Origin: Bradyrhizobium genosp. L
GTDB taxonomy: Bacteria > Pseudomonadota > Alphaproteobacteria > Rhizobiales > Xanthobacteraceae
Assembly: GCF_015624485.1 (NCBI RefSeq)
Contig: NZ_CP061378.1
Span: 496,001 to 560,000, forward strand
Direction: 5' to 3'
Length of the DNA stretch: 64,000 nt
The notes under the pieces were generated by a model. That model was not told the DNA's origin, searched no databases, and saw nothing but the letters and a program-made list of their open reading frames with translations. Made by a program: the position numbers and the translations under genes. Within the stretch, counting starts at the first letter, position 1, and each line of letters begins with the position of its first letter. Shown here piece by piece: positions 36,579 to 59,350 of this stretch.

Positions 36579-36598
36579 CGACAGACAGGATTGAACTG

Positions 36599-37555
36599 AT
36601 GGCCAAAGGTTTCGCCTCGACCACCGATCTCTCGGAAAAGAAGGTCACCTTCTCCGAGATCGGCACCGATCTCTACGCCTTCACCGCCGAGGGCGATCCC
36701 AACACCGCCGTGATCGTCGGCGAGGACGGCTGCCTGGTGTTCGACGCGCAGGCGACGCCGGCGATGGCGAATAAGGTGATCGAGCGGGTGCAGACCGTCA
36801 CCGACAAGCCGATCAAATATGTCGTGCTATCGCATTATCACGCGGTCCGCGTGCTCGGCGCCTCGGCCTATCATGCGCAGGGCATCGTCGCCTCGCAGGA
36901 AACCTACCGCCTGATCGAGGAGCGGGGCCAGCAGGATTGGGATTCCGAGTACGGCCGCTTCCCGCGCCTGTTCCAGGACGCCGCCAGCATTCCCGGCCTG
37001 ACCTGGCCGACGCTGACCTTCGAGGGCGAGATGTCGATCTACCTCGGCAAGCGCGAGGTGCGGCTGATGCAGCTCGGCGCCGGCCACACCTCCGGCGACA
37101 TCGTCGCCTGGGTGCCGGATGCCGAGGTGATGTTCTCGGGTGATCTGATCGAATACCATTCGGCCTGCTATTGCGGCGATGCGCATTTGCGCGAATGGCC
37201 GATGACGCTGAATGAAATCCGCGCCTTCAATCCGAAGGCGATCGCGCCGGGCCGCGGCGACGCGCTGACCGGCCTCGCCACCACGCGCGATGCGATCGCG
37301 ATGACCCGGGATTTCGTCACCTCGCTCTATGGCGCGGCGGAGACCTCGGTCGCCAAGGGCCGCAGCCTGAAGGAATCGATGGCTGCGACACGCGAGGTGA
37401 TGGATCCGAAATTTGCGAGCTTTGCGATCTACGAGCACTGCCTGCCGTTCAACGTCTCGCGCGCCTATGACGAGGCGTCCGGCATCGACGACCCCGTGAT
37501 CTGGACCGACAAGCGCGACCAGGAGATGTGGGCCGCGCTGCAAGGAGGAGGATAG
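36599..37555 (+). CDS. Metallo-beta-lactamase-fold protein with incomplete metal motif
   Basis: 318 residues. The fold is clear ([60 protein letters not shown]), but the usual HxHxDH reads HYHAVRV at residues 79-85: both site-1 His are present while the site-2 Asp and His are replaced by Val and Arg. GHTSGD and SGDLIE keep the other ligands. It may therefore bind a single metal. Located 20 bases after DUF2783 and two bases before hmgA, so it is clearly part of this operon. Role unknown; thioester or lactone hydrolysis linked to ring cleavage is a guess. Confidence 0.82.
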
Positions 37556-37557
37556 TC

Positions 37558-38904: not shown

Positions 38905-38910
38905 CACTTG

Positions 38911-39067
38911 CCCTCCCCTGGAGGGGGAGGGTCGCTTCACAGTGAGCGAAGCGAATGTGAAGCGGGGTGGGGTGATCTCTCCCCTCGGGCACTGCTTCAG
39001 CGGAGAGACTTTCACCCCACCCCGCCGCTCATTTCATTCGCGTCGACCCTCCCCCTCCAGGGGAGGG
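38911..39067. repeat. Palindromic repeat, CCCTCCCCTGGAGGGGGAGGG class
   Basis: Left arm CCCTCCCCTGGAGGGGGAGGGT and right arm ACCCTCCCCCTCCAGGGGAGGG, with inner arms GGGGTGGGGTGA and TTCACCCCACCCC. It fills the 208-base gap between hmgA and fahA; the pair may still be cotranscribed. Confidence 0.85.
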
Positions 39068-39112
39068 TGAAGAACATCAGCCGTTGCACCTGATTGCACA
39101 CCGGGAAATCCT

Positions 39113-40384
39113 ATGCCCCACCCCAACGACCCCTCCCTCCGCTCCTTCATCGACGTCGCGCCGACCTCAGACTTCCCGATCCAGAACCTGCCCTACGGCG
39201 TGTTCTCGTCGAAGGACGGGCTGGCGCCGCGGGTCGGCGTCGCGATCGGCGACTACGTGCTCGACCTGTGGGAGCTCGAGCAGGACTCGCGGCTCGATGT
39301 CGGGCCGCTCGGCGTGTTCTCGCAGCCCTCGCTCAATGCCTTCATGGCGCTGGGGCCGAAGGTGTGGTCGGCGACGCGGGCGCGGATCAGCGAGCTGCTG
39401 CGCTCCGATCACGCGGAGCTGCGCGACAACAGGGAGTTGCGGGCGCGGGCGCTGGTGCCGATGGCCGACGTGAAGCTGCACATGCCGTTCACGGTCGCGG
39501 GCTACACCGATTTCTATTCGTCGAAGGAGCACGCCACCAATGTCGGCGTCATGTTCCGCGGCAAGGACAATGCGTTGCAGCCGAACTGGCTGCACATGCC
39601 GATCGGCTATAACGGCCGCGCGTCGACGGTGGTTGTGAGCGGCACCAACGTGCGGCGCCCCCGCGGCCAGCTCAAGCCGCCGACGGCGGAGGTGCCTTCG
39701 TTCGGTCCGTGCAAGCGGCTCGATTTCGAGCTTGAGATGGGCGTCGTGGTCGGGCAATCGTCGCCGATGGGCGAGATGCTGACCGTGCAGCAGGCTGAGC
39801 AGATGATCTTCGGCTTCGTCATCCTCAACGACTGGAGCGCGCGCGACATTCAGGCATGGGAGTACGTCCCGCTCGGGCCGTTCCAGGCCAAGGCGTTCGC
39901 GACCTCGATCAGCCCGTGGGTGGTGACGCGCGAGGCGCTGGAGCCGTTCCGGCTGCAGGGCCCGGCACAGCAGCCGGAACCGCTCGCCTACCTGAAGCAG
40001 GCAGGGGTGAACAATTACGATATGCAGCTCGATGTTGCGCTACGCGCCGGCGCGATGAACGAAGCGAAGACTATCACCAGCACCAATTTCAAATACATGT
40101 ACTGGTCGTCGGTGCAGCAACTCGTGCATCACGCCTCCAGCGGCTGCGCGATGAATGTCGGCGATCTCTTGGGGTCCGGCACGATCTCCGGCCCGGAGAA
40201 GCAGCAGCGCGGCAGCCTGTTGGAGATTTCCTGGAACGGCACCGAGCCGGTCGAGCTTGCTGATGGCGTCAAGCGCACCTTCCTGGAAGACGGCGACACC
40301 CTCGTGATGCGCGGCTGGTGCCAGGGCGATGGCTATCGGGTCGGCTTTGGCGAGGTGGAAGGGACGATCATCGCGGCGGAGTGA
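39113..40384 (+). CDS. fahA: Fumarylacetoacetase
   Basis: 423 residues. Last step of tyrosine catabolism: cleaves fumarylacetoacetate to fumarate and acetoacetate. N-terminal FAA domain (FPIQNLPYGVFS), catalytic/metal region YTDFYSSKEHATNVGVMFRG, RLDFELEMGVVVG (metal Glu), NDWSARDIQAWEYVPLGPFQAKAFATSISPWVV, and the C-terminal GDTLVMRGWCQGDGYRVGFGE. All expected residues are present and length matches the family. It lies 208 bases after hmgA with a repeat in between. ATG 39113 has GGGAAA upstream. Confidence 0.97.
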   Translation: MPHPNDPSLRSFIDVAPTSDFPIQNLPYGVFSSKDGLAPRVGVAIGDYVLDLWELEQDSRLDVGPLGVFSQPSLNAFMALGPKVWSATRARISELLRSDHAELRDNRELRARALVPMADVKLHMPFTVAGYTDFYSSKEHATNVGVMFRGKDNALQPNWLHMPIGYNGRASTVVVSGTNVRRPRGQLKPPTAEVPSFGPCKRLDFELEMGVVVGQSSPMGEMLTVQQAEQMIFGFVILNDWSARDIQAWEYVPLGPFQAKAFATSISPWVVTREALEPFRLQGPAQQPEPLAYLKQAGVNNYDMQLDVALRAGAMNEAKTITSTNFKYMYWSSVQQLVHHASSGCAMNVGDLLGSGTISGPEKQQRGSLLEISWNGTEPVELADGVKRTFLEDGDTLVMRGWCQGDGYRVGFGEVEGTIIAAE

Positions 40385-40392
40385 TCTCCGCA

Positions 40393-40480
40393 CCGTCATT
40401 GCGAGGAGCGGAGCGACGAAGCAATCCATCCATCGGCGTACGCGGAGCGATGGATTGCTTCGCTCCGCTCGCAATGACGG
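40393..40480. repeat. Palindromic repeat, CCGTCATTGCGAGGAGCGGAG class
   Basis: Arms CCGTCATTGCGAGGAGCGGAG and CTCCGCTCGCAATGACGG, inner arms GCAATCCATC/GATGGATTGC. It fills the space between two converging genes (fahA ends 40384, DUF1272 ends 40485). Confidence 0.88.
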
Positions 40481-40484
40481 GGGC

Positions 40485-40796
40485 CTACCGCTCCTCCGGT
40501 CTGATATCCCGCAACCGCGCCGAATGCGCCGCGCAATCCTCCGTGCTGTATTTCAGATGCACCCGCTTGTCCGACGGCGGCTGCTTCGCCGTGCAGACGC
40601 CCGGCCGCCATTCCGTCGCGGGCCGGATCGGGCGCGGCGCGAAGCCGCCGCCGCAATTCGGGCAGACATTGCCGAGCTTCTGCTCGGCGCAGTCCGCACA
40701 GAACGTGCATTCATAGGAACAGATGCGCGCCTCGAGCGCGCTCGGCGGCAGGTCCTTGTCGCAATATTCGCAGTTCGGTCGCAGCTGGAGTGCCAT
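40485..40796 (-). CDS. DUF1272 zinc-ribbon protein
   Basis: 103 residues. MALQLRPNCEYCDKDLPPSALEARICSYECTFCADCAEQKLGNVCPNCGGGFAPRPIRP is a full DUF1272 domain with eight cysteines in four Cys pairs or near-pairs, expected to bind two zinc ions. The C-terminal extension (about 65-103) is polar. ATG 40796 has AAGGGAAG upstream. It is not obviously linked to tyrosine breakdown, sits convergent to fahA, and its role is unknown. Confidence 0.88.
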   Translation of the reverse strand: MALQLRPNCEYCDKDLPPSALEARICSYECTFCADCAEQKLGNVCPNCGGGFAPRPIRPATEWRPGVCTAKQPPSDKRVHLKYSTEDCAAHSARLRDIRPEER

Positions 40797-40880
40797 GATC
40801 GCTTCCCTTGCCGGATGTTGCAGCGATGATCGCAAGCCACGCCGCCAAAGCGAATGGCGGAATTCCCTCGATTTGCGCCA

Positions 40881-41357
40881 TCAGGCCTGCAGCGACTTCA
40901 GCGGCAGCTTGGTGCTTTCCTTGAGCCGGTCGAGCACGATCGAGGAGCGCACGTGGGCCACGCTCTGGTGCGGCATCAGCACGTTGTTGATGATGTCCGA
41001 CAGGCTCTTGAGGTCGCGCAGCATCACCTTGAGCAAATAGTCGGCGTCGCCGGTCAGCGCGTAAGCGTCCTGGATGTCGTCGACGCGGTTCACCAGCTCG
41101 CGGAACCGTTTGGCATTGTCGGGTGAATGGGTCGCCAAGGTGATGTGGATGAAGGCGATCAGGCCGAAGCCGAGCGCCTCGCCGGCGAGGTCGGCGTGGT
41201 AGCCGGATATCACCTTCTCCTCCTCCAGCCGCATCCGGCGCCGCGAGCATTGCGAGGCGGAGAGGCCGACCAGGTCGGCGAGCTGCTGGTTGGTGAGCCG
41301 GCCGTCATCCTGCAACGCGGCGAGCATTTTGAGGTCGAAGGCGTCAACGTCAGTCAT
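40881..41357 (-). CDS. Lrp/AsnC-family regulator
   Basis: 158 residues: helix-turn-helix (LKMLAALQDDGRLTNQQLADLVGLSASQCSRRRMRLEEEKVISGY) followed by the RAM ligand-binding domain (VDDIQDAYALTGDADYLLKVMLRDL). Divergent from hppD, with a perfect 14-base palindrome (41372-41385) and a second interrupted one (41400-41420) between them. It is almost certainly the local regulator of 4-hydroxyphenylpyruvate dioxygenase, probably sensing tyrosine, phenylalanine or a related amino acid. ATG 41357 begins the domain; an in-frame GTG (41381) lies inside the palindrome. Confidence 0.92.
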   Translation of the reverse strand: MTDVDAFDLKMLAALQDDGRLTNQQLADLVGLSASQCSRRRMRLEEEKVISGYHADLAGEALGFGLIAFIHITLATHSPDNAKRFRELVNRVDDIQDAYALTGDADYLLKVMLRDLKSLSDIINNVLMPHQSVAHVRSSIVLDRLKESTKLPLKSLQA

Positions 41358-41371
41358 GCTCTGATCGTCCA

Positions 41372-41420
41372 ATTTGTGCACAAATCGTGCATGATTCTAG
41401 CAAAAAGAGGGTTATTTTGC
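41372..41420. promoter_or_regulatory. Probable Lrp/AsnC operators between the regulator and hppD
   Basis: 41372-41385 is ATTTGTGCACAAAT, a perfect palindrome. 41400-41420 is GCAAAA-9-TTTTGC, an inverted repeat with nine bases between. Both are much more AT-rich than the surrounding DNA and lie in the only gap between two divergent genes, 61 to 109 bases before the hppD start. Confidence 0.65.
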
Positions 41421-41480
41421 ACGCACATTGCGCAGCAAGTGACGGAAACTGATCTCCAGCCAAATCAGGGAGTTATCGCC

Positions 41481-42599
41481 ATGGGTCCATTTCCGCACGA
41501 CGCTCCGCTGGCCACGATCAGCGCCGACAACCCGATGGGCACCGATGGCTTCGAGTTCGTCGAATATGCCCACCCCAATCCCGAAGAGCTGCACGCTTTG
41601 TTCAAGTTGATGGGTTTTGTCCCGGTCGCCCGCCACAAGACCAAGGCGATCACGGTCTATCGCCAGGGCGACATCAATTATCTCGTCAACGAGCAGACTG
41701 GCACCCACGGCTTCGACTTCGTCGCCGCTCACGGCCCATGCGCACCGTCGATGGCGTTCCGCGTGGTCGATGCGAAGCAGGCCTATGCGCGTGCGATCTC
41801 GCTCGGCGCGGAGCCGGCCGATGTCTCGTCTGCACAGAAGACCCTCGATGTCCCCGCGATCAGGGGCATCGGCGGCAGCCTGCTGTATTTCGTCGACCGT
41901 TACGGCGCCAAGGGCTCGGCCTACGACACCGAGTTCGAATGGCAGGGCGTGCCGAACCCGCGACCTGCGGGCTCCGGCCTTTATTACGTCGACCACCTCA
42001 CCCACAACGTCCATCGCGGCCGCATGGATGTCTGGACCGGCTTCTATTCGAAGCTGTTCAACTTCCGCCAGATCCGCTTCTTCGACATCGAGGGCCGCGC
42101 GTCGGGCCTGTTCTCGCGCGCGCTGACCAGTCCGGACGGCAAGATCAGGATTCCGATCAACGAGGACGCCGGCGATTCCGGGCAGATCGAGGAATATCTC
42201 AACATCTATCGCGGCGAGGGCATCCAGCATATCGCCTGCGGTGCGCGCGATATCTATTCGACGGTCGAGACGCTACGCGCGGACGGCTTGCCGTTCATGC
42301 CGTCGCCGCCGGAGACCTATTTCGAGCGGATCGATGCGCGCCTGCCCAAGCATGGCGAGGACCTGACAAGGCTCCAAAGCAACGGCATCCTGATCGATGG
42401 CGAGGGTGTGGTCGACGGCGACCAGACCAAGGTGCTGCTGCAGATATTCTCGGCGAACGCGATCGGACCGATCTTCTTCGAGTTCATCCAGCGCAAGGGC
42501 GACGACGGATTCGGCGAAGGCAATTTCAAGGCGCTGTTCGAATCGATCGAGGAAGACCAAATCCGCCGCGGCGTACTGAAAGTCGACGACGCGGCGTAA
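41481..42599 (+). CDS. hppD: 4-hydroxyphenylpyruvate dioxygenase
   Basis: 372 residues. Converts 4-hydroxyphenylpyruvate to homogentisate using Fe(II) and oxygen. Two vicinal-oxygen-chelate domains; iron ligands are the His in YYVDHLTHNV (about residue 173), the His in EGIQHIACG (about 252) and the Glu in GPIFFEFIQRKGDDGFGEGNFKALFES (about 331). ATG 41481 has AGGGAG ten bases upstream and gives the family length; a long upstream extension overlaps the Lrp operators and is rejected. It is the first enzyme of the homogentisate branch whose later steps are encoded 3-7 kb to the left. Confidence 0.97.
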   Translation: MGPFPHDAPLATISADNPMGTDGFEFVEYAHPNPEELHALFKLMGFVPVARHKTKAITVYRQGDINYLVNEQTGTHGFDFVAAHGPCAPSMAFRVVDAKQAYARAISLGAEPADVSSAQKTLDVPAIRGIGGSLLYFVDRYGAKGSAYDTEFEWQGVPNPRPAGSGLYYVDHLTHNVHRGRMDVWTGFYSKLFNFRQIRFFDIEGRASGLFSRALTSPDGKIRIPINEDAGDSGQIEEYLNIYRGEGIQHIACGARDIYSTVETLRADGLPFMPSPPETYFERIDARLPKHGEDLTRLQSNGILIDGEGVVDGDQTKVLLQIFSANAIGPIFFEFIQRKGDDGFGEGNFKALFESIEEDQIRRGVLKVDDAA

Positions 42600-45694: not shown

Positions 45695-46495
45695 TCAGCC
45701 CGCCGCGGTGACCGCGCGCTGGCCCATCACCTTGACGAGGTTGGCGCGATAGTCCGCCGAGCCGTGGATATCGGCGAGCAGGCCGCTTGCCGGGATCGTC
45801 ACGCTGTCGAGTGCCGAGGCCGACCAGTTCGCCTTGAGTGCCTGCTCGATCACGCCGACCCGCATCACGCCGCTTTGCGACGCGCCGGTCGCCGCCACCT
45901 GCACATCGCCGGACCTAGTCCTGGCGACGAACACGCCGGTCAGCGCAAAGCGCGAGGCCGGGTGACGCATCTTGGCGTAGCCCGCCTTTGCCGGAACCGG
46001 GAACGACACGGCGGTGATGATCTCGCCGTCTTCGAGCGCCGTCGAGAACAGGCCCTTGAAGAAGTCGTGCGCTGCGATCGACCGCTTGTTGGTCTTCACC
46101 GTCGCGCCGAGCGCCAGCACCGCCGCCGGATAATCCGCCGCCGGGTCGTTGTTGGCGAGCGAGCCGCCGATCGTGCCGCGATGGCGCACGGCGGGATCGC
46201 CGATCATCGAGGCCAGATGGGCGAGCGCCGGGATCGCCTTCTGCACGGCCTCGCTTTGCGCGACGTCGTAATGCGTGGTCGCGGCCTTGATGGTGACGGT
46301 ATCGCCTGACACGTCGATGCCGATCATGTCCTTGATCTTGGCGACGTCGATCACGTCGGATGGCGCGGCAAGGCGCTGCTTCATCACGGGCAGCAACGTC
46401 TGTCCACCGGCCAGGAATTTCGCCTCGCTGCCTTTGCCGAACAGCGACACGGCATCGTCGACCGAGGATGCGCGGTGATAAGTGGTCTCGTACAT
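45695..46495 (-). CDS. Molybdenum hydroxylase FAD-binding subunit (CoxM-like)
   Basis: 266 residues of the FAD_binding_5 plus CO_deh_flav_C type. The FAD loops AKFLAGGQTLLPVMKQRL (about residues 25-42) and TIGGSLANNDPAADYPAAVLAL (about 105-126, with GGSLAxxDP) are intact. It passes electrons from the iron-sulfur subunit to an acceptor such as quinone. ATG 46495 follows GGGAGGATACG; it begins 11 bases after the CoxL-like stop. Last gene of the operon CoxS-L-M order, followed by a terminator. Confidence 0.92.
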   Translation of the reverse strand: MYETTYHRASSVDDAVSLFGKGSEAKFLAGGQTLLPVMKQRLAAPSDVIDVAKIKDMIGIDVSGDTVTIKAATTHYDVAQSEAVQKAIPALAHLASMIGDPAVRHRGTIGGSLANNDPAADYPAAVLALGATVKTNKRSIAAHDFFKGLFSTALEDGEIITAVSFPVPAKAGYAKMRHPASRFALTGVFVARTRSGDVQVAATGASQSGVMRVGVIEQALKANWSASALDSVTIPASGLLADIHGSADYRANLVKVMGQRAVTAAG

Positions 46496-46506
46496 CGTAT
46501 CCTCCC

Positions 46507-48846
<2,340 letters not shown>

Positions 48847-48936
48847 TGTCAGATCCTCCCGACCGGAGATTTCGATTTGCCGCCGTTTCCATCGAGCCGG
48901 CGGTGATGAGCTTGATCGTTTCGTGTCCGTAGGCGG

Positions 48937-49422
<486 letters not shown>

Positions 49423-49829
49423 GCGTCTCTCCCGAATTGCTTCGTTATCGGCCCAGTAGACCATGCTTCATTTGGGACGTAACCGCGATCAAAGTCGTAG
49501 TGGCGACCTCGTCATGAAGGCGGCCGGGCCTGTGCCGCGATCCTAGCAGGCCGTTGTTGCGTCGGCAATTTGCAAGGTCGCAACCCGACGATTTGAGGCG
49601 ACGAGACCGGCCTCGTCCGGCCGCCTTTGCCGCGCATTGGCAGCGTCCGCGTTGCCCGGAATCGGTCTCCGTCGCTGCTACTACCTTCCGCCTATAACGA
49701 CCCAAAAGCGTTGCTGTCATCTTCCTTGCCGAAGCAGCGACGAAGATCGCGCATTCATGAATTGGGTAAGAATTCGCGCCCGCGATGCATGCATCGCGGC
49801 AACGAAACCATATTGTCTGGAGGAAGCAG
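49423..49829. other. Divergent promoter region between cox-like operon and xoxF-like gene
   Basis: 407 bases. It holds a TACTACCTT sequence at 49679-49687 (a copy occurs before the FIST-kinase operon) and a 20-base perfect palindrome at 49780-49799. An AT-richer tract (CCTATAACGACCCAAAAG) follows the first. No coding frame here is credible. Confidence 0.6.
49780..49799. promoter_or_regulatory. Perfect 20-base palindrome in the xoxF-like leader
   Basis: CCGCGATGCATGCATCGCGG, 31 bases upstream of the start codon. It could be an operator or a leader hairpin close to the ribosome site (TGGAGGA at 49818-49824). Confidence 0.5.
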
Positions 49830-51545
49830 ATGAAGCCGAGGAGCGGGATTTTCTTTGCCGGCGTGTCGCTGGTCGCGATGGTGATGGCGAGTGTTGGCGC
49901 GTCGAGAGCCAACGATTCGGTCGTGAAGGCGGTCTCGGACCCCAACGAATGGGCGATCGCCGGGCATGATTACGGCAATACGCGTTTCAGTCCCTTGAAG
50001 CAGATCAATTCCGAGAATGCCGGCAAGCTGCAGCTGGTCTACTCGATGTCGCTGGCCTCGTTGCGCTCCAACGAGTCTTCGCCGGTCGTGATCGGCAAGA
50101 CGCTCTACGTCTCGACCTCCTGGGGACCGAAATACGTCTACGCGATCGACGCCGCCACCGGCGCGCGCAAATGGACCTGGCAGCCGGACATTCCGGATGA
50201 CGTGCTTCAGTATGCCTGCTGCGACGTCAACAGCCGCGGCGTGTCCTATGCCGACGGCAAGATCTTCGTCGGCCGGCTCGACGGCAAGCTGACCGCGCTC
50301 GATGCCGAAACCGGCAAGGAGCTGTGGACCTCGACCGTGGTCGACTACAAGCAGGGCTCGGTGATCACCTCGCCGCCGCTGATCGTCCGCGACAAGGTCA
50401 TCACCGGCTTCGGCGGCGGCGAGTACGGCGTCCGCGGCTCGTTGCAGGCGTTCAGCCTGAAGGACGGCAAGCTGCTCTGGCAGACCTACACCGTGCCGGC
50501 GCCTGGCGACCCCGGCAGCGATACCTGGAAGGGCGATACCGGCCTGCATGGCGGCGGCGCCGCCTGGCTGGTCGGCTCCTATGATGCGAAGACCGACACG
50601 GTCTATTGGGGCACCAGCAATCCGGGGCCGTGGAACACCGCGGTGCGCTCCACCGGCGACGGCAATTTCGGCAAGCTGACCAATCTCTACACCGCCTCGA
50701 CGCTCGCGATCGATCCCAACGACGGCAAGATCAAGTGGCACATCCAGGGTACGCCGGCCGACGCCTGGGATTTCGATGGCGTCAACGAGTTGCTGCTGGC
50801 CGATCTCAAGATCAAGGGCGCCGAGACCCCGGTGTTGATGAAGGCCGATCGCAACGGCTTCTTCTTCGTCGCCAACCGCGAGACCGGCAAGGTGATCTCG
50901 GCCGAGAAATATGTCTTCGCGAATTGGGCCAAGAAGTGGGACATCAACACGATGCGGGCCGAAGAGGATCCGGACAAGCGCCCCGGTCCCGGCCATCCCG
51001 CTAAGGACATCTGTCCGAACCTGATCGGCGGCAAGAACTGGCAGCCGATGTCGTTCAACCCGGGGACCGGCCTCGTCTACATCCCGACCAACAACGTCTG
51101 CATGGACTGGTCGGTCGGCGACGTCAACTACAAGCGCGGCGTGTTCTATCTCGGTGCCGAATTCCCGACCAAGGAAGGTCCGGGCGGCTTCCTCGGCGAA
51201 CTCGTGGCCTGGGATCCGATCGCCAACAAGAAGGTCTGGGGCATCAAGGAAGACCTTCCCTTCAACGGCGGCACGCTGACCACCGGGGGCAATCTGGTGT
51301 TCTCCGGCAATCTGCACGGCGACTTCCGCGCCATCGACGCCAAGAACGGCAAGGTGCTGTGGAGCAAGAACCTCGGCAGCGGCATCGGTGCGGGCCCGGT
51401 CACCTATTCGGTCGACGGCAAGCAGTATGTCGCGATCGTGGTCGGACGCACCGCGGCACTCCCGGCCTTCCTCGGCGACATCGGCAAGAAGATGGTCGCC
51501 GCGGCGCCCGAGGGCGGCTCGCTGTTCGTGTTCGCCCTGCAATAA
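49830..51545 (+). CDS. xoxF: PQQ-dependent alcohol dehydrogenase, lanthanide (XoxF) type
   Basis: 571-residue periplasmic quinoprotein with a signal peptide (cleavage after ASRA, about residue 27). Eight-bladed propeller; vicinal disulfide YACCDV (Cys130-Cys131); metal/PQQ ligands GGGEYG (Glu198), GTSNPGPWN (Asn264) and DAWDFDG (Asp314, the catalytic base). Asp316, two residues after the catalytic Asp, is the additional acidic ligand that marks lanthanide-dependent enzymes; calcium enzymes have Ala there. It should oxidise methanol or another short alcohol, passing electrons to cytochrome c. ATG 49830 has TGGAGGAAGCAG upstream. The next gene supplies a probable XoxJ/cytochrome partner. Exact subgroup (XoxF5 or related) not determined. 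Confidence 0.93.
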   Translation: MKPRSGIFFAGVSLVAMVMASVGASRANDSVVKAVSDPNEWAIAGHDYGNTRFSPLKQINSENAGKLQLVYSMSLASLRSNESSPVVIGKTLYVSTSWGPKYVYAIDAATGARKWTWQPDIPDDVLQYACCDVNSRGVSYADGKIFVGRLDGKLTALDAETGKELWTSTVVDYKQGSVITSPPLIVRDKVITGFGGGEYGVRGSLQAFSLKDGKLLWQTYTVPAPGDPGSDTWKGDTGLHGGGAAWLVGSYDAKTDTVYWGTSNPGPWNTAVRSTGDGNFGKLTNLYTASTLAIDPNDGKIKWHIQGTPADAWDFDGVNELLLADLKIKGAETPVLMKADRNGFFFVANRETGKVISAEKYVFANWAKKWDINTMRAEEDPDKRPGPGHPAKDICPNLIGGKNWQPMSFNPGTGLVYIPTNNVCMDWSVGDVNYKRGVFYLGAEFPTKEGPGGFLGELVAWDPIANKKVWGIKEDLPFNGGTLTTGGNLVFSGNLHGDFRAIDAKNGKVLWSKNLGSGIGAGPVTYSVDGKQYVAIVVGRTAALPAFLGDIGKKMVAAAPEGGSLFVFALQ

Positions 51546-51564
51546 CGATCGAACGGAGGCAATC

Positions 51565-52753
51565 GTGTTCCTGATGTGCATGGCCCGAAACGAACTGCGC
51601 AGTCGTTCGCGCAACGCCCGGTTGGGACGCGATCCGGTCCGTCCTGCTCTCCACACTGCTGCTGGCGCCGGCCCTGTCGGCCGGCGCCGAAGCGACCAAG
51701 CCGCTGCGGCTTTGCGCCGATCCGACCAATTTGCCGTTCTCGAGCGACGAGCCCGGCAACCCGGGCCTCTATCTCGAGATCGGCCAGGCGGTGGCCCAAC
51801 GGCTCGGCCGCGCGGTGAGCTACACCTGGTACAAATCGTACTTCGGCAAGCGCACGGTGCGCGAGACGCTGCTCTCGCGGCAATGCGACGCCATGGTCGG
51901 CCTGCCGCTGGTCGACGACTTCATGGGCCCGGCGGTGATCTTCTCGAAGCCGATTGCCCACGAAGGCTACGCGCTGGTCGCGGCAAAGGATCGCAAGCTC
52001 GGTGGTGTCGACGATCTCAAGGGATTGCGGGTCGCGGTGCAATACCAGTCGACGCCGCAAAACCTGCTGGCGTCGCGTGACGAGATCCAGAAGGTGACGG
52101 TGCTCAGTCCCGATGAGGGCATGGTGGCGCTGGAGCAGGGCAAGGTCGACGTCGCCTTCATCTGGGCGCCGGTGGCGGGCTGGCTCAACAAGACCGTCTA
52201 TGGCGACAAATATCGGCTCGTCTCGACCGAAGGCGACGGCCTGCTCTGGCAGACCGCGATCGGCTTCGCCAAGGGATCGGGCGCGCTGCGCGATGAGGTC
52301 GACACGGTGCTGCCGTCGCTGCAGGCCGATATCGACGCGCTGTTCGTCAAATATGGCGTGCCGAACGCCACACCGGTGAAGTTCGGCGAGGTCGATCGGG
52401 CGACGTCGTCGGTCGGCGCCAACGAGCCGGTCACGGTCGGACAGGCCGCCCCGGCCGACAAGCCGGTGCAGACCGCGGCAGTCAGCGGAGACCCCAAGGC
52501 AGGCCGGGAAACCTTCAACGGCACCTGCGCGCACTGCCATGGCCCGGACGCGGTTCAGGCCGAACGCAAGATCGATCTCAGGCTGCTGAGGAAGCGCTAT
52601 GCCGACGAGATGGAAGCGACCTTCTGGAAAACGGTCCATGATGGCCGGCCGGCCAAGGGCATGCCGGCGTGGAAGGATGTTTTTAGCGACGACGAGCTGA
52701 AAAACGTCTATGCCTATCTGCAGACGGTGCAGGACTCCGGCACGTCGAACTGA
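51565..52753 (+). pseudogene. XoxJ-like binding protein fused to cytochrome c, frameshift in leader
   Basis: From 51640 on, one frame encodes a signal-peptide core (SVLLSTLLLAPALSAGAEA), an SBP_bac_3-like domain (about LRLCADPTNLPFSSDEPGNPGLYLEIGQAVA to the YGVPNATP region; the MxaJ/XoxJ type) and a C-terminal class I cytochrome with CAHCH heme motif (about 52525) and PAKGMPAWKDV (Met ligand). This frame has no ATG, GTG or TTG before 51731. A good start (GTG 51565 after GGAGG, 19 bases past the xoxF stop) lies in another frame. One extra G in GGG (51624-51626) would explain it: removing it gives a continuous leader NARLDAIRSVLL. It may be an assembly error, or the gene may be truly damaged. 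The fused XoxJ-cytochrome would accept electrons from XoxF. Confidence 0.75.
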
Positions 52754-52790
52754 GGGGCAGGGCGATTGTAACATCCATGCGAGGGTCCTC

Positions 52791-53471
52791 ATGATGGGGT
52801 TCCTGATCATCGACGATCACCCATTGTTTGGCGAAGCGCTTGGCAATGCCATCCGGATCTCGCATCCGGATGCCCGGATCTACGAGGCCACCTCGATCAA
52901 AGGCGCGCTCGGCATCCTCGCCGCCGAGCCGAACATCGACCTCGCGCTGCTCGATCTACTGCTGCCCGACGTGGTCGGCTTCTCCGGCTTCCAGAAGATC
53001 CGCGACCGCTATCCGCGGCTGCCGATCGCCATCGTGTCGAGCGAGGAGGACAAGCACACGATCCGCGAGGCGCTGGAGATGGGCGCGGTCGGCTATTTGC
53101 CGAAATCGACCTCGCTGGGCGAGCTCTCGGAAGCGATCGCGCGGGTGCTGAGCGGATCGGTTTCGGCGCCGCGGGACTTCGTCGCGGTCGGCGCGCTCGA
53201 GCAATCCGAGACCGCGCGGACGCTGCGCGAGCGGATCCAGAAGCTGACCCCGCAGCAGATCCGCGTGCTGCATCTGATCACCCGCGGCCTGCAGAACCGC
53301 GAGATCGCCGCCGAGCTCAAGCTCGCGGAGTCCACGGTGAAGGCGCATGTTACGGAGATCCTGCGCAAGCTGAAGCTGTTCAGCCGCAACAAGGCGATCA
53401 TCGAGCTCGGCAAGATTCCGCTGCCCGCTCCCGAAACCTGCGCGGCGAACAAGCCGGAACAGGCGTCCTGA
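52791..53471 (+). CDS. LuxR-type response regulator (NarL family), first of two
   Basis: 226 residues. Receiver (about 1-120): FLIIDDHPLF with acidic pocket Asp, phospho-acceptor Asp in ALLDLLLPDVVG, Ser in IVSSEED, Lys in GYLPKST. LuxR HTH (about 150-215): LTPQQIRVLHLITRGLQNREIAAELKLAESTVKAHVTEILRKLKL. ATG 52791 follows GAGGG; it starts 37 bases after the cytochrome-fusion gene, so it belongs to the xoxF operon. It resembles AgmR/EraR-type activators of quinoprotein dehydrogenase genes in Pseudomonas, an analogy by architecture and position. Confidence 0.9.
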   Translation: MMGFLIIDDHPLFGEALGNAIRISHPDARIYEATSIKGALGILAAEPNIDLALLDLLLPDVVGFSGFQKIRDRYPRLPIAIVSSEEDKHTIREALEMGAVGYLPKSTSLGELSEAIARVLSGSVSAPRDFVAVGALEQSETARTLRERIQKLTPQQIRVLHLITRGLQNREIAAELKLAESTVKAHVTEILRKLKLFSRNKAIIELGKIPLPAPETCAANKPEQAS

Positions 53472-53584
53472 TCAGCCGCACCGCAAGGCGCGCGGTGCGC
53501 TCGCCTATAGGCCGCATGGCATCTTTGAGGTAACGTCGTGGCCAAAATGGCCGCCCAAGAGCGGCCTGGGAGGACCGCGCAGCT

Positions 53585-54337
53585 TTGACCATGACCACAA
53601 CCGCGCCCCCGGCGGAGCCGCCGCCGGTCAGCAAGGCGGATGCGCCTCGGCTGCTCATCGTCGAGGATCATCCGCTGTTCCGCGCCGCGCTGATCGGCGT
53701 GATCGGCGCCGAATTTCCCGATGCCGAGGTGCTGCAGGCGACGTCGATCGACGGCGCGCTCGACATCGTCGCCGCGCGCGAGGATTTCGATCTGATCCTG
53801 CTCGACCTCTCGATGCCCGGCACGTCGGGGCTGCTCGGCGCCTATCGCGTCCGTGCCGCCGCGCCGCGCAGCGCGCTCGTTATCGTCTCCGCGCATGACG
53901 ATTCCCGGATTGTCGGCAGCGCGATTGCGCTCGGCATTTTCGGCTACATCCCGAAGTCGACGCCGAAGGCCGAGCTGGCGCGGCTGTTGCGCGGCATACT
54001 CGACGGCGACGTCAGCCTGCCGAAGCGCTTCCGCGATGCAGCCGCCGCCAGGCGAGGCCAGGCCGACACGAGCGGCCTGCTGCAGCACCTCGGCCAGATG
54101 ACGGCGCAGCAGCTGCGCGTGCTCGACATGATCTGCCACGGCCTGCAGAACAAGCATATCGCCTACGAGCTCGACATCTCCGTCACCACCGTGAAGGTGC
54201 ATGTCTCGGAGATCCTGCGCAAGCTCGGCGTCCGCAGCCGGACCGAGGCGATCATCGCCCTGTCGAAGCTGGACTTCGGCAAGCACGACCATGCTCCGGT
54301 GACGGCCGCGTCGGCATCGGAAGGCGAGGATTCATAA
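53585..54337 (+). CDS. LuxR-type response regulator (NarL family), second of two
   Basis: About 250 residues. Pro/Ala-rich start, then the receiver (about 20-140) with LLIVEDHPLFRAALIGVI, LILLDLSMPGTSG (phospho-Asp), SAHDD and YIPKSTPKAEL, and a LuxR HTH (about 170-235; MTAQQLRVLDMICHGLQNKHIAYELDISVTTVKVHVSEILRKLGV). It is a paralog of the preceding regulator, sharing the unusual HTH spacing. Start may be TTG 53585 or ATG 53591; GGGAGGA is 11 or 17 bases away. Its stop overlaps the stop of the convergent kinase gene by six bases (54332-54337). Confidence 0.9.
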   Translation: MTMTTTAPPAEPPPVSKADAPRLLIVEDHPLFRAALIGVIGAEFPDAEVLQATSIDGALDIVAAREDFDLILLDLSMPGTSGLLGAYRVRAAAPRSALVIVSAHDDSRIVGSAIALGIFGYIPKSTPKAELARLLRGILDGDVSLPKRFRDAAAARRGQADTSGLLQHLGQMTAQQLRVLDMICHGLQNKHIAYELDISVTTVKVHVSEILRKLGVRSRTEAIIALSKLDFGKHDHAPVTAASASEGEDS

Positions 54338-55705
54338 CCGAACCGCCTGTGGCTCCGAGGCCAGCAGGAACGACAGCAGTGAGCGCATCTCGGCGGGCTT
54401 GATCGGCTTCTTCAGCAACTCATGTCCGAACGCGGAGACGCTCGAGGCGGCGGTCGCGGAGTAATCGGCGGTGACGATGATCGCCGGAACCGCGCTCTTG
54501 ATCTCGCTGCGGATCACGTCGACCGCGTCGATGCCGGTTTCACCGTTGTCGAGATGGAGATCGGCGATGATGGCGTCCGGAATGCCGTCCAATGCCCGGA
54601 TGCGCTCCAGCGCCTCGGTCTTGGAGATCGTCACCGCGACGTCGCAGCCCCATTTCTCCAGCAGGCTGGCGAGGCCCTCCGCGCTCGAGAGATCGTTCTC
54701 GATCAGCAGGATCTTGGCACCCTCCATGCCGCCATAGCGGTAGTCGACGCTGACCTGCTCGCGAACCGCCGTAGCGACGGGATCGGCACTGCGCGGGACG
54801 GTGACCGAGAACACCGAGCCCTTGCCCGGTCGCGAAGTCAGGCGGATGTCGTGGCCGAGCACGCTGCCGAACCTGCGCACGATCGAAAGGCCGAGGCCGA
54901 TGCCCGCCTTGTCGGCGGCGCCAGCCTCGCCGCGCTGGAATTCGACAAAGATCGCCTCGCGCTGGGCTTCGGGGATGCCGGGTCCGGTATCGTGCACCTC
55001 GATCCAGATGTCGTCGCCGCGGCGGCGGCATCCCATTACGACGCTGCCGCGCTGGGTGTAGCGCAGCGCATTGGCGAGCAGATTCTGCAGCACCCGCCGC
55101 AGCATCAGTGGATCGGACCGCACCACGGCGGAGGACGGGACGATCTGCAGCGCGAGATTGCGCTTGGCGGCGGTCGGGCTGAATTCTTCGCGCAGCGGCT
55201 CGAACAGCGCCGCGATCGCGACCGGACCGAATTCCGGCTTGAGCACGCCGGCATCGAGCTTGGAGATGTCGAGCAGGGTGCGCAGCATATCCTCGAGCGT
55301 CGCCAGCGAGCGTTCGATCTGGTCGGTCAGCGCGATGCCCTTGGCCTCGTCGATCATCTCCGTCAACGCCGACAGCGTCAACCGCGCCGCGTTCAAGGGC
55401 TGCAGCAGGTCGTGGGTGACCGACACCAGCACCGACGATTTCAGCGAACTCGCCGCCTCGGCCTGCTGCTTGGCCTGCAGCAGGCGGCCGTTGGTCTTCT
55501 CCAGCGACTGCAGCACCTGCTTGAGCTGCTGGGTGCGGTCGCGCACCTGCTGGTCGAGCGCGATCGCGGTCTCGAACAGCGAAAACGCGTTGAGCTGCTG
55601 GTCGGTCGAGCGCTCGACGCGCGACATCAGCGCCGCGTTGATCTTGCGCAGCTTCTCGGCCTCGCGCTCGAGCGCCGCAATGCGGCTTTTGCTGCTGTCG
55701 GTCAT
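54332..55705 (-). CDS. Hybrid histidine kinase, ErcS'/NahK-like
   Basis: 457 residues, no membrane segment. A coiled coil (about 5-100: ALEREAEKLRKINAALMSRVE, VRDRTQQLKQVLQSLEKTN) precedes HisKA with the H-box SVTHDLLQPLNAARL (phospho-His about 135), then ATPase boxes LQNLLANALRYT, DTGPGIP and GIGLGLSIVRRF, then a receiver (about 335-455; LLIENDLSSAEG, IIADLHLDNG, TADYS, LKKPIKP). ATG 55705 overlaps the FIST gene stop (55702) by four bases, so the two are translationally coupled. It should phosphorylate the LuxR regulators opposite. Soluble FIST-kinase pairs regulate ethanol oxidation and NO response in Pseudomonas. Confidence 0.9.
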   Translation of the reverse strand: MTDSSKSRIAALEREAEKLRKINAALMSRVERSTDQQLNAFSLFETAIALDQQVRDRTQQLKQVLQSLEKTNGRLLQAKQQAEAASSLKSSVLVSVTHDLLQPLNAARLTLSALTEMIDEAKGIALTDQIERSLATLEDMLRTLLDISKLDAGVLKPEFGPVAIAALFEPLREEFSPTAAKRNLALQIVPSSAVVRSDPLMLRRVLQNLLANALRYTQRGSVVMGCRRRGDDIWIEVHDTGPGIPEAQREAIFVEFQRGEAGAADKAGIGLGLSIVRRFGSVLGHDIRLTSRPGKGSVFSVTVPRSADPVATAVREQVSVDYRYGGMEGAKILLIENDLSSAEGLASLLEKWGCDVAVTISKTEALERIRALDGIPDAIIADLHLDNGETGIDAVDVIRSEIKSAVPAIIVTADYSATAASSVSAFGHELLKKPIKPAEMRSLLSFLLASEPQAVRL

Positions 55706-56871
55706 CGTGGTGTGGCGGTCCGCTTGCCGATGGCGACCCCGGTCAGCGTCTGGTTGACATGCATGGAGCGATATTGCTCGCCATAGGTCTGAAAACCAAC
55801 CACCTTGTTGCGGCGATAGAGCTCCGACATTTCCCGCGACAATTGGTGCTGCTCGACGTCGAGCCGGCGCAGCACGCATTCGAAGCCGATGAACACCGAG
55901 ATATCGCCGAGCTCTTCGCTGATCTCCTCGAGCAGGTCGCTGGTCGCCTCGACCGGATCGCGCTCGCGCGCCACCGTCAGCACCATCCCCTCGTCGATCG
56001 CACAGAAGAATTGCAGCGAGCCGTCCGGGTTGGTGCGCTGGATCGAGCGTGCGTAATAGGAACCGCCGACGCGGACCAGCAAGGGATGGGCGGCAAAGGA
56101 GAACAGTTCGAGCTTGCTGTCGCTCAGGCCCACCGCGCGCGAATATTCCAGCGCCGCCGGCTCGGCATTGATCTCCTTGACGATGCGTCGCTCGATATCG
56201 GCCTCGGTGACCACCATCTTGGTCGAGGTCGGCTCGAAATGATCGCATTTGAACAGGCGGAACGGCAGCCGGGTCCGGACCAGGATCAGGACGGCGGCAT
56301 CGGTGTAGGCCTTGCCGCGGTGAAAGACCCACGACTTCTCGAAGCGCAGGCCGTCGCCGGCCGAGCCGCCGACGATCGGAATATCGCCGAGCGATGCGTA
56401 AATCGCCGACATCAGGGTCTCTTCGCGCTGGCACATCCCGTCGATGAACATCAGGCCGAACGACTCGTGGCCAAGGTCGCAATCCTCGGTGTGCTGCGCG
56501 AACTCCTGCTGCAGCTCGGTGCAGACTGATCGCCCCCGATCGACCCGGAATGTCGACAGCTCGAACAGCGGGCGGGCCGCGATCATGAAGTCCGCCGCGT
56601 TGAAGCCCATCGCGACCACGCTATCCTCGTCCCAGCCGCCCGGCGTCAGCTCGCCGGCGGTCGTGCAGCCGAAGATCGGCGTGTCCGGCAGTCGCTGCGA
56701 CAGCTCCGCGATGAAGATCTCGGGATCGTAGAACGGCGACACGAACACGGTGACCATCGCAAGCTCGGTCGTCGCCAATTGGCGCGCGATCTCGTCCGCG
56801 GCTTGCCGCGGTCCGGTGGTCTTCGCCTGCGCCACGACGATGCTGTCGGCAGCGCTGCCGTGTGCCTCCAA
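55702..56871 (-). CDS. FIST-domain sensor protein (NosP-like)
   Basis: 389 residues. N-terminal FIST domain (about 15-225: VTVFVSPFYDPEIFIAELSQRLPDTPIFGCTTAGELTPGG, LMFIDGMCQREETLMSAIYASLGDIPIVGGSAGDGL) and FIST_C (about 230-370: RIVKEINAEPAALEYSRAVGL, HPLLVRVGGSYYARSIQRTNPDGSLQFFCAIDEGMVL, FIGFECVLRRLDVE). FIST proteins sense small ligands; NosP binds heme and NO. TTG 56871 follows AGGGAGGAGGCC, a better start than the upstream TTG 56889. It is coupled by a four-base overlap to the kinase gene. Ligand here is unknown; His-rich heme sites are not obvious to me. Confidence 0.9.
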   Translation of the reverse strand: MEAHGSAADSIVVAQAKTTGPRQAADEIARQLATTELAMVTVFVSPFYDPEIFIAELSQRLPDTPIFGCTTAGELTPGGWDEDSVVAMGFNAADFMIAARPLFELSTFRVDRGRSVCTELQQEFAQHTEDCDLGHESFGLMFIDGMCQREETLMSAIYASLGDIPIVGGSAGDGLRFEKSWVFHRGKAYTDAAVLILVRTRLPFRLFKCDHFEPTSTKMVVTEADIERRIVKEINAEPAALEYSRAVGLSDSKLELFSFAAHPLLVRVGGSYYARSIQRTNPDGSLQFFCAIDEGMVLTVARERDPVEATSDLLEEISEELGDISVFIGFECVLRRLDVEQHQLSREMSELYRRNKVVGFQTYGEQYRSMHVNQTLTGVAIGKRTATPR

Positions 56872-57316
56872 GGCCTCCTCCCTGACCAACCTCGTCGTTA
56901 TCGGCGCAAGCGAACCCGCGCGCGTCGCCGCCTCGTACAGATTGTACGGCGTTGGCGCGCTGTCGGGTTCGCCGGAATCTCACTTGTGGCAATGGGACGT
57001 GTCCGCGGGCGGGCGCTGCCGCCGGCAGGTCCGTTCGTCGCAAGCACCCGTGGCGCCGTTCGACGCGATGACATGGGACTCCTCCGATGTAGTCGCTTGG
57101 CCCGCGCAGGGCCGAGTTTGATTGGTTCTAACCTATCGGGCCCACCGGGCGCGTCAATCGCCGGACCCTTCGTCCTGGGCCGACCAAGGTAGTATCGGCC
57201 GAATCGGCCGTACATTTACCCAGCCTTATCCATTGTCCCTTAGCTTTGCGCGCCGGGGACTGGGGCGGGCTGCTGCCGGACCCCGTGTGGTTTTCAGAAT
57301 GAAGACGAGGGGCGGC
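56872..57316. other. Divergent promoter region between FIST operon and chemoreceptor
   Basis: 445 bases. 57186-57194 is AAGGTAGTA, on the minus strand TACTACCTT, the same nine bases as before xoxF. Next to it is the inverted repeat TCGGCCGAATCGGCCG near 57195-57210. Nothing coding is evident; an in-frame upstream extension of the chemoreceptor to 57122 is not convincing. Confidence 0.5.
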
Positions 57317-59350
57317 ATGACGGGGCTGAAGCGATCGCGTTCGATCAAATTCCCAACCCTTCGGTTCCGCGCCAAGATCATGCTCGGCTTTGCCGTGACG
57401 CTGGCGCTGTCGGCGGCCACCATGGGCTTCGCCTATATGGGCTTCGAGCGGGTCTCCGCCGGGGTCGGCTCCTACCGCCAGAGCGTCGCAGAGGCGGATC
57501 TCGCCCGCAACATCGACCGCGAGCTGATTTCCTATCAATCGCTGACGCGCTATTTCGTGCTGACCGGCAAGGAAGACGATGCCAAGGCCGCGCTCGAGGC
57601 CGAGACCAATCTGAAGGACGCCATCCAGGCCGCCAAGAAGGGCACCACCAGCCCGGCCCGGCTCGAGCAGCTCGCCAACCTCGAGCGTGAGTTCCAGGCC
57701 TTCACCAAGATTTTCGCCGAGATCGTTAGGCTCAAGGACGAGAGCGCGCTGACCGCGCAGAACAAGCTCACCCGCAGCGCGACCTCGATGCGCTACAAGC
57801 TCGACGACCTGCCGAGCAACGCCGATGATTCCGAGCTGCAGGCGATTCAGTTCGGCGCCAAGAAGGTGTCCGACCAGATCGCGTCGATCACCGGGGCGGC
57901 CAACACCTTCATCGTCAACGGCGACAAGTCGGTCGCCGCCAGCGCGCTCGCCCGGCTGAAATTCGCCGATAATCTGGTCAAGGCGATCACCTCGAAGGAC
58001 CAGCGGATCATCCAGGGCGTGAAGGAAATCACCGGGCTGCTGGACGAGTACCGCGAGGCGCTCGCCAAGCTGATCGAGAACTCCAAGGCGATCGATGCGC
58101 TGACCGGCCAGATGACGGCGTCCGCGTCCGGCATCGGCGACGTCTCGGCTGCGATGACCTCCGACCTGCTCGCCGACCAGAAGCGGCTCGATACCGAATC
58201 GCACGCCACGATCGGCGAAACCGAGCGCTTGATCTTGATGCTGGCCATCGGCGGCCTCGTGCTCGGAATTGTCTGGGCGTTCCTGCTCGGCAAGGGCATC
58301 TCGAAGCCGATCGCGGCGATGTGTGCCGCGATGCGCGAGCTCGCGGCGGGCAATTTCGAGGTCGTGCTGCCCGGCCTCGGCCGCAGCGATGAGCTCGGCG
58401 AGATGGCCGGCGCGGTGGAGGAGTTCAAGCTCCAGGCGGTCGCCAAGGCCGAGCGCGACGCTGCGAGCCAGGAATCGCAAAATAAAGCCAGCGCCGCCGC
58501 CCGGCGTGCCGAGCTTATTCGTTTCGCCGACGAGTTCGAATCCGCCGTCGGCTCGATCGTCTCCAACGTGTCGGCCTCCGCCGTGCAGCTCGAGTCGGCG
58601 GCCGGCACGCTGACCCGGACTGCGGAGACCACGCAGAATCTATCCAGCCAGGTCGCCGGCGCCTCGGAGGAGGCCTCCAGCAACATGCAGTCGGTGGCGT
58701 CCGCGACCGAGGAGCTCTCCGCTTCCGTCGACGAGATCGGCCGCCGCGCCAAGGAATCCAGCCAGATCGCCGACGCCGCGGTGCGTCAGGCCGAGCAGAC
58801 CGATGCGCGGATCGGCAAGCTGTCGCGCGCCGCGCAGGAGATCGGCGACGTGGTCAAGCTGATCACCGCGATCGCCGAGCAGACCAACCTGTTGGCGCTG
58901 AACGCCACCATCGAGGCGGCGCGGGCCGGCGATGCCGGCCGCGGCTTCGCGGTGGTCGCCTCCGAGGTGAAGTCGCTGGCGAGCCAGACCGCCAAGGCCA
59001 CCGACGAGATCTCCAACCACATCGCGGGCATGCAGTCGGCGACACAGGAATCAGTCGCCGCGATCAAGGAAATCGGCGGCACCATCGGCCAGATCTCGGG
59101 CATTGCCACCAACATCGCAGGCTCGGTCGAGCAGCAGAGCGCCGCGACGCAGGAGATCGCCCGCAGCGTGCAGAATGTCGCGATCGGCACCCAGGAAGCC
59201 GCGACCAACGTCACCCTGGTCAACCGCGGCGCGACCGAGACGGGCGCAGCCTCCGAGGAGGTGCTGCATTCGGCACGCACGCTCTCGGTCGAGAGCACGC
59301 GGCTGCGCGAGGAGCTCGACCGCTTCATGGCGAACATCCGCGCGGCGTAA
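57317..59350 (+). CDS. Methyl-accepting chemotaxis protein with HBM-like sensor
   Basis: 677 residues. Short cytoplasmic N-terminus ([11 protein letters not shown]), first membrane segment about 22-42, a helical periplasmic sensor (45-305) resembling the HBM four-helix type ([32 protein letters not shown]), second membrane segment about 307-330, HAMP (about 330-385: [47 protein letters not shown]), then the signalling domain with the hairpin tip [47 protein letters not shown]. It should report an external chemical to CheA-CheW. ATG 57317 follows GAGGGGCGGC. It is divergent from the FIST-kinase genes, which may be chance. Confidence 0.93.

Follow-up and report, generated by a model that had tools for sequence, protein, structure and literature searches.

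An accessory six-gene cassette of Bradyrhizobium that may couple a XoxF-like alcohol dehydrogenase to its own FIST–kinase control circuit

Does a FIST protein with an adjoining histidine kinase control the alcohol dehydrogenase encoded beside it, or do the genes share no more than a site? The question is raised by six adjacent genes in a 64,000-nucleotide stretch of Bradyrhizobium genosp. L (contig NZ_CP061378.1, positions 496,001 to 560,000; hereafter the window), part of a 7.40-Mb genome in a single contig. They encode a pyrroloquinoline quinone (PQQ)-dependent dehydrogenase, a fusion of a XoxJ-like binding protein with a c-type cytochrome, two response regulators (RR1 and RR2), a hybrid histidine kinase and a FIST-FIST_C protein. 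We find that this cassette is real, its conservation being far beyond chance. An earlier, sequence-only reading of the window had described the same set as a self-contained module; the set stands, whereas its wording on strands and its XoxF label do not, and the assembly shows a frameshift in the fusion gene. On balance it seems probable that the cassette is an alcohol-oxidation enzyme set with its own control circuit, accessory and all-or-none in occurrence.

Occurrence of the six genes in Bradyrhizobium

The genus survey covered 117 Bradyrhizobium genomes, with FIST matches accepted at an expectation value (E) of 1e-20 or below and close dehydrogenases at 81% identity or more. Both were found in an identical set of 51 genomes, which bears out the proposed coupling of the FIST–kinase pair to the dehydrogenase. 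In 50 of these genomes both lie on one contig, always on opposite strands; in the remaining one they are on separate contigs. They are 4.1–5.9 kb apart in 45 genomes and 7.4–18.9 kb apart in five (L077, L081, L082, L083 and L084, at 7–19 kb), both nevertheless being retained. A second FIST copy (51–55% identity) occurs in four module genomes and a weak second match in four others.

Gene order is equally constant. A FIST protein query against GTDB species contigs gave 33 loci, 26 of them from Bradyrhizobium, and all 26 carry the six genes in the same order. With 20 further Bradyrhizobium loci retrieved and the window counted, 47 regions were available. The dehydrogenase, fusion and both regulator genes are present in every one, and the kinase and FIST genes in 46, the exception (L082) being a region that ended short of them. 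The conserved order anticipated by the sequence-only reading holds in 46/46 regions spanning all six genes, although a few loci give split matches (for example RR2 in L009 and the kinase in L024 and L025). With its genes present or absent together and their order fixed, the module's self-containment is borne out beyond expectation.

The site is also seen without the cassette. Fourteen module-less coxL loci, picked by hand, all show the order CoA-transferase, coxM, coxL, coxS, MCP chemoreceptor, transporter, trehalose-phosphatase, and none of the 14 has a module gene above 60 bits. The cassette occupies precisely the junction of coxS and the MCP gene, with both flanks complete in 37 of the 47 module loci. 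Four loci (L022, L024, L067 and L068) have no cox or MCP match in the stretch and three genomes (G065, G023 and G024) carry coxL on a different contig, so the module may also occupy other sites. The divergent neighbour coxL, which encodes a molybdenum hydroxylase large subunit, occurs at 87% identity or more in 111 of the 117 genomes (50 of 51 with the module, 61 of 66 without). In a 52-row coxL tree, presence or absence of the module switches eight times, with at least three of the switches forced by well-supported branches.

Could the genes travel together by linkage, with the FIST–kinase pair governing another process such as biofilm formation, chemotaxis or cyclic di-GMP through an Hpt protein? 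Pseudomonas NosP–NahK feeds HptB and biofilm control (PMC12997753), and across the class a PQQ dehydrogenase lies in the stretch for only six of 20 FIST loci. However, FIST tracks the dehydrogenase exactly while the equally close coxL departs from the pattern, and hence linkage alone is no explanation. The co-occurrence is exact (51/51) through several all-or-none changes, and it holds in the five genomes with 7–19 kb between the genes. We regard linkage with a separate function as quite improbable.

The enzymes, the regulators and a candidate operator

The cassette features are collected in Table 1. The sequence-only reading had called the kinase and FIST genes convergent; both are on the minus strand, and as a pair they converge on RR2, the other four genes being on the plus strand. 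Its overlaps are exact: the FIST stop and kinase ATG share four bases (55702–55705), and the kinase and RR2 frames share six at their stops (54332–54337). The FIST start codon is uncertain (TTG 56889 or TTG 56871).

Table 1. Window positions of the candidate operator and the six cassette genes
Feature	Position	Strand	Basis or remark
Conserved cis element CTACTACCTTCCGCC	49678..49692	+	152 bp 5' of dehydrogenase ATG; proposed response-regulator site
PQQ-dependent alcohol dehydrogenase	49830..51545 (ATG 49830, stop 51545)	+	TIGR03075, tree, PDB scores
XoxJ-like binding protein fused to mono-heme c-type cytochrome	51565..52753	+	TIGR03871, Cytochrome_CBB3, alignment with relatives
Response regulator 1 (RR1), REC + LuxR-type helix-turn-helix, ErdR-like	52791..53471	+	Pfam, NCBIfam, regulator tree
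Response regulator 2 (RR2), REC + LuxR-type helix-turn-helix, RR1 paralogue	53585..54337	+	Pfam, NCBIfam, regulator tree
Hybrid histidine kinase, NahK/ErcS family, probably soluble	54332..55705	-	NF041832, Pfam
FIST-FIST_C protein, NosP/GfdT-like	55702..56889	-	PF08495, PF10442, NF041558, kinase overlap

The dehydrogenase passes TIGR03075, the model for PQQ methanol/ethanol dehydrogenases (657.9 bits; cut-off 480.05), and its N terminus looks by eye like a signal peptide. An Asp does stand two residues after the catalytic Asp, as had been noticed: the D-F-D of PADAWDFDGVNE (WDFDG) supplies the lanthanide-type second Asp seen in the XoxF and PedH PDB chains. The enzyme is probably lanthanide-dependent. 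On a tree of 22 rows, which carries a long-branch warning, it and its orthologues make up a separate lineage that is sister to the XoxF chains and distinct from PedH; the branch shared with the XoxF clade has support of 98/95 and each side 100/100. The rows comprised PDB 4MAE, 7O6Z, 6OC5, 6ZCW and 1KV9, the genome's paralogues and dehydrogenases encoded close to FIST genes at other loci, XoxF3 and XoxF4 being unrepresented. The five PDB chains are XoxF2, XoxF1, XoxF5, PedH and ADH IIB, respectively. PDB scores are 443 bits to 4mae, 380–390 to 6zcv/6zcw and 1kv9, and 362 to 6oc5. Because the enzyme falls outside the XoxF1/2/5 clade despite its lanthanide-type Asp, the name XoxF proper was rejected and we call it XoxF-like.

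The genome's XoxF5 lies away from the cassette (5,382,011–5,383,654; 1052 bits to PDB 6oc5). Counting it, the genome (G000:C1) has five more matches of PQQ-dehydrogenase type, at 466642-467730, 1536187-1537785, 4677331-4679004, 5382011-5383654 and 5404290-5405918. A XoxF5-type homologue was the most upregulated PQQ dehydrogenase in one Bradyrhizobium grown on methanol (PMC12628762); the main text of that paper does not contain the words 'histidine kinase', 'regulator' or 'xoxJ'. PQQ synthesis is probably possible, since pqqE is present elsewhere in the genome (602 bits; cut-off 381).

The joining of a XoxJ-like part to a cytochrome, also proposed earlier, is upheld, with a broken frame in this assembly that is taken up below. 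Scanned from 51731 on, the XoxJ-like part scores 84.2 bits against TIGR03871, below the cut-off of 212.15, over positions 11–231 of 232, and matches the PDB XoxJ 6onp with E 2.4e-14. The cytochrome part scores 47.6 bits against PF13442 (Cytochrome_CBB3; cut-off 27) and is mono-heme, its one CAHCH kept in 7/7 rows shown. No separate xoxJ match was found at the cassette site. The idea of such a fusion is not new: in cytochrome cGJ (XoxG:J) of Methylacidiphilum a c-type cytochrome likewise carries a XoxJ-like domain, next to a PQQ dehydrogenase (PMC8498564, PMC6688271). In Bradyrhizobium the XoxJ-like part precedes the cytochrome, an order seemingly reversed from that of cGJ as its name implies.

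The two regulators are paralogues, as first described, of the REC plus LuxR type and 43% identical. For both, the top NCBIfam model is that of ErdR (NF041830), at 164 bits against a cut-off of 390. In a quick tree of 37 rows, with seven Bradyrhizobium rows each, RR1 and RR2 form sister clades (97% by the Shimodaira–Hasegawa-like approximate likelihood ratio test, SH-aLRT) and the single regulators of other FIST loci branch outside them, so that the pair stems from a duplication within this lineage.

When the stretches separating coxS from the dehydrogenase gene were aligned, a near-invariant block emerged. Its 15-bp core, CTACTACCTTCCGCC, is exact in 45 of 47 upstream regions and has one mismatch in the remaining two, is mostly followed by (T/C)ATA, and lies 123–155 bp 5' of the dehydrogenase ATG. 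It was absent from all 14 empty loci and matches exactly once in the 7.4-Mb genome. The TACTACC within it equals the start of the Pseudomonas ACTU site, with 12 of 17 positions agreeing in a by-eye count that carries no significance value (PMC5715377); ACTU is required for activation of acs by CrbR/ErdR in Pseudomonas (PMC5715377). The excerpts of three CrbR papers (PMC8402216, PMC9927353, PMC5436829) hold no site letters. Given this resemblance and the ErdR match of both regulators, CTACTACCTTCCGCC is a candidate target for them. A role as a genome-wide regulon site is unsupported, near matches not being in excess, and the lone one-mismatch site (L088) has no module gene among the reading frames listed around it. 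In Ruegeria, a three-mismatch element stands directly upstream of the regulator gene in a FIST–kinase unit beside coxSLM (L063, 9100–9117). A four-mismatch match in L042 was set aside as within the level of shuffled sequence (3).

Neither neighbour belongs to the cassette. The coxLMS genes were dropped as members because coxL is core, and the MCP gene (window 57122-59350) because it adjoins coxS in 14/14 empty sites, where it appears as two MCP matches in seven; this ties the chemotaxis gene to coxLMS whether the cassette is present or not. The coxM-coxL-coxS molybdenum hydroxylase at 45695-49464 carries AYRGAGR, which we take to be a form II motif, so that its product is probably not a true CO dehydrogenase. 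Farther off, genes of the FAD-binding, metallo-beta-lactamase, fumarylacetoacetase and hydroxyphenylpyruvate-dioxygenase types at 34637-42599 are perhaps a tyrosine/homogentisate degradation cluster.

What the FIST protein may sense

The kinase has HisKA, HATPase_c and C-terminal REC domains and an N terminus without a PAS match. It passes the NahK/ErcS domain model NF041832 (401.8 bits; cut-off 400; residues 110–474, the scan having started 81 bases ahead of the ATG) and scores 379.8 against 1500 for the full-length NahK/ErcS' model NF041831. In its N-terminal 100 residues no membrane segment was seen by eye, no predictor having been run. The FIST protein passes both Pfam cut-offs (PF08495, 170 bits; PF10442, 76.8 bits). 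Its only NCBIfam match up to E 0.001 is the NosP equivalog NF041558, at 435.7 bits under a cut-off of 450, which one of six relatives reaches in trimmed stretches. Cys75, Cys338 and His377 are invariant in 38/38 FIST sequences, a set from which distant-locus rows with stops or of up to 330 residues were dropped, and in 34/34 bacterial sequences of a separate alignment.

These parts suggest a circuit. The dehydrogenase would oxidize an alcohol in the periplasm and pass electrons to the fused cytochrome, with the XoxJ-like part assisting activation. An oxidation product, in all likelihood an aldehyde, would be reported in the cytoplasm by FIST, which would set the activity of the overlapping and probably translationally coupled kinase. 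The kinase could then signal to one or both ErdR-like regulators, directly or via an Hpt protein, and these would bind CTACTACCTTCCGCC and control the dehydrogenase operon, perhaps together with the divergent coxS promoter. RR1 and RR2 may have opposing effects, like AfdR and RfdR of Rhodobacter. We hold this chain as a whole to be reasonably probable; on the signal itself, the evidence leans to aldehyde over nitric oxide (NO) or metal.

NO would be the signal if FIST were a heme-based sensor, NosP proper; kinase activity would then follow NO, and alcohol oxidation would be linked with denitrification or nodule NO. NosP is the sole NCBIfam match of the protein, the kinase lies above the NahK/ErcS domain cut-off, His377 is invariant and NosP–NahK signalling by NO is published (PMC8846402). 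The match nevertheless falls just under the equivalog cut-off, and the annotated neighbours are PQQ, aldehyde or cox-type oxidation genes in five of six picked plasmid stretches and formaldehyde oxidation genes in Dongia, no search for NO genes having been made. An NO sensor is therefore an unlikely though serious candidate. Alternatively, the circuit might sense a lanthanide or another metal in the manner of PedS2/PedR2, with FIST as a helper. The lanthanide-type active site fits this, as does the lanthanide-responsive two-component system that governs PedE and PedH in P. putida (PMC6115532, PMC12997753). Yet no periplasmic sensor is apparent, given the N terminus of the kinase, and two Paracoccus loci (L062 and L066) have the same trio beside a WDFSG dehydrogenase, with Ser for the second Asp. 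We consider metal sensing very improbable.

How might FIST perceive an aldehyde? In its AlphaFold model (mean pLDDT, the predicted local distance difference test, 83) the top structural match by Z among the matches listed is human FBXO22 (PDB 8s7d; Z 18.5, root-mean-square deviation 3.4 over 249 residues, 14% identity), followed by the folds of chorismatase and cyanuric acid hydrolase. Ranked by Foldseek E-value, FBXO22 is second among the matches listed, behind a cyclic amide hydrolase. The absence of heme proteins from the fold matches listed is non-probative. Neither the FIST sequence nor its profile found anything relevant in the PDB, FBXO22 being found by fold alone. FBXO22 is a ubiquitin ligase subunit whose Cys326 takes aldehydes, supposedly as a reversible hemithioacetal (PMC11208438); it shares with FIST the fold and a conserved C-terminal Cys.

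Cys338 of FIST_C could capture an aldehyde in the same form, as it appears from sequence comparison to match Cys326. Pfam FIST_C matches the FBXO22 C terminus (34.7 bits; cut-off 28.5), with residues 6–57 of the FBXO22 fragment on profile positions 80–130 and residues 245–374 of the window protein on 1–131. End-point arithmetic puts both cysteines near positions 93–95, within about two, and MAFFT on excised C-terminal parts aligns the bacterial Cys with Cys326 throughout the 31 rows (30 bacterial plus FBXO22). Only these two comparisons join the proteins; the direct profile search fails and hhalign differs, so we call the proposal no more than plausible. A broader version, in which FIST is an ancient aldehyde-sensing domain and a Cys338 hemithioacetal switches the kinase here and in FlhRS/AfdT/ErcS'-type systems by FBXO22-like chemistry, is tentative and rather doubtful.

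A number of observations weigh against the proposed circuit. For the cysteine, the match to FBXO22 depends on an excised stretch, a direct FIST profile search scores FBXO22 no better than shuffles, hhalign of FBXO22 with FIST gives a different register, and the structure prediction is of low confidence near His377 (pLDDT below 50 for residues 371–379). NosP relatives respond to NO (PMC8846402), and the adhI response of Rhodobacter to formaldehyde is unaffected in an rfdT mutant (PMC4776306). At the operator, sites with up to two mismatches are not in genome-wide excess (nine, against 67 for a reversed control), and just one of 33 FIST loci outside Bradyrhizobium has a match with up to three mismatches. 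Two genomes without a FIST match carry dehydrogenases 57–58% identical to ours (G037:C69:857-2470 and G043:C118:12291-13904); these more distant enzymes are the sole FIST-less occurrences, 2 of 117 genomes. As coxL exists without the cassette, a shared alcohol-to-acid route is conjectural.

The fusion gene adds a further point of this kind. It is two bases short between 51628 and 51629, in the signal-peptide region, relative to seven aligned relatives, and this deficit puts the GTG 51565 start and the mature frame out of register. The frame from GTG 51565 stops at 52080. The mature frame is open to 52753 and has no ATG, GTG or TTG from its last stop (51572) until TTG 51731, already within the mature domain. 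In 25 parseable relatives of 26 the frame is open with in-frame start codons. Since the remainder of the frame is open here also, a recent mutation or an assembly error fits.

Relation to known systems

The class survey, of 385 Alphaproteobacteria genomes with FIST accepted at E of 1e-30 or below, found a match in 20, the window's own genome counted. Apart from the window's match there were 21, of which we retrieved 20 (19 genomes), several in stretches cut short at contig ends. A kinase lies beside FIST in 19 of these 20 loci, L045 having a receiver-domain piece only; a LuxR-type regulator matches in 15 (as fragments in L045) and coxSLM in one (L044). A PQQ dehydrogenase occurs in six stretches (L042, L046, L052, L055, L057 and L058). 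The sequence-only reading had asked whether most relatives carry the pair without xoxF. In the genus they do not, the same 51 of 117 genomes having both; across the class the answer is divided, with a kinase in 19 of 20 but a PQQ dehydrogenase in six.

Plasmids offer similar units, seen in six hand-picked stretches. Regulator, FIST and kinase genes lie beside a PQQ dehydrogenase on two Paracoccus plasmids and one of Shinella and adjoin cox genes on a Ruegeria plasmid, and a FIST–kinase pair adjoins an aldehyde dehydrogenase gene in Azospirillum. On plasmid p1METDI of Methylorubrum extorquens DM4, a FIST gene (L064, 10001–11176) has no kinase match within 10 kb and several insertion sequences nearby. 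The Dongia contig L034 (equal to L057) runs from XoxF5, a cytochrome, XoxJ, a CXXCW protein, a pentapeptide-like protein and ABC transporter genes to S-formylglutathione hydrolase (fghA), S-(hydroxymethyl)glutathione dehydrogenase (frmA), FIST, kinase and regulator.

That last setting resembles FlhRS of Paracoccus and AfdRS/RfdRS of Rhodobacter, which control methanol/formaldehyde oxidation; in these systems a third gene, named orf2, afdT or rfdT, separates the regulator gene from that of the kinase (PMC4776306, PMC8879981). We infer that this third gene encodes a FIST protein; regulator, FIST and kinase genes beside alcohol or formaldehyde oxidation genes are seen in the window, 45 further loci and the Dongia contig. 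Regulator, T protein and kinase are adjacent as in our cassette, and Rhodobacter has two systems of opposite sign, whereas no glutathione-linked genes were seen at the Bradyrhizobium site. AfdRS and RfdRS lack conserved cysteines (PMC4776306). In P. putida, PP_2663 (GfdT/NosP), PedS1 (ErcS'/NahK) and AgmR lie in the pedE/pedH cluster (PMC12997753). The ped/exa systems share with the cassette a NosP/FIST-type protein, a NahK/ErcS-type hybrid kinase, a LuxR-type regulator and PQQ alcohol dehydrogenases, PedH being lanthanide-dependent. The Bradyrhizobium version differs in its short kinase without a PAS match, duplicated regulators, fused XoxJ–cytochrome and dehydrogenase lineage. The NosP–NahK pair likewise combines FIST-FIST_C with a NahK-like kinase, but ours is under the NosP cut-off and has LuxR-type regulators and a dehydrogenase as neighbours.

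With Pseudomonas ped, Paracoccus FlhRS and Rhodobacter Afd/Rfd alike, this kind of system is already known and the Bradyrhizobium cassette is a variant of it. The novelty implied by the sequence-only reading is therefore lost, FIST–kinase–LuxR sets being described in P. putida beside quinoprotein dehydrogenases that include the lanthanide enzyme PedH (PMC12997753), with FlhRS and AfdRS/RfdRS alike (PMC4776306, PMC8879981). Judged by titles and abstract openings among the literature matches listed, none describes FIST adjoining XoxF in Bradyrhizobium.

Enzyme, electron carrier, sensor, kinase, regulators and candidate operator are thus packed into one small natural unit, and the clean empty site in sister species makes plus/minus tests possible. 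The cassette marks a lineage of alcohol dehydrogenase, probably lanthanide-dependent, that 51 of 117 Bradyrhizobium genomes carry. If the FIST cysteine is an aldehyde receptor, one chemistry would join bacterial alcohol oxidation and a human ubiquitin ligase used in degrader design.

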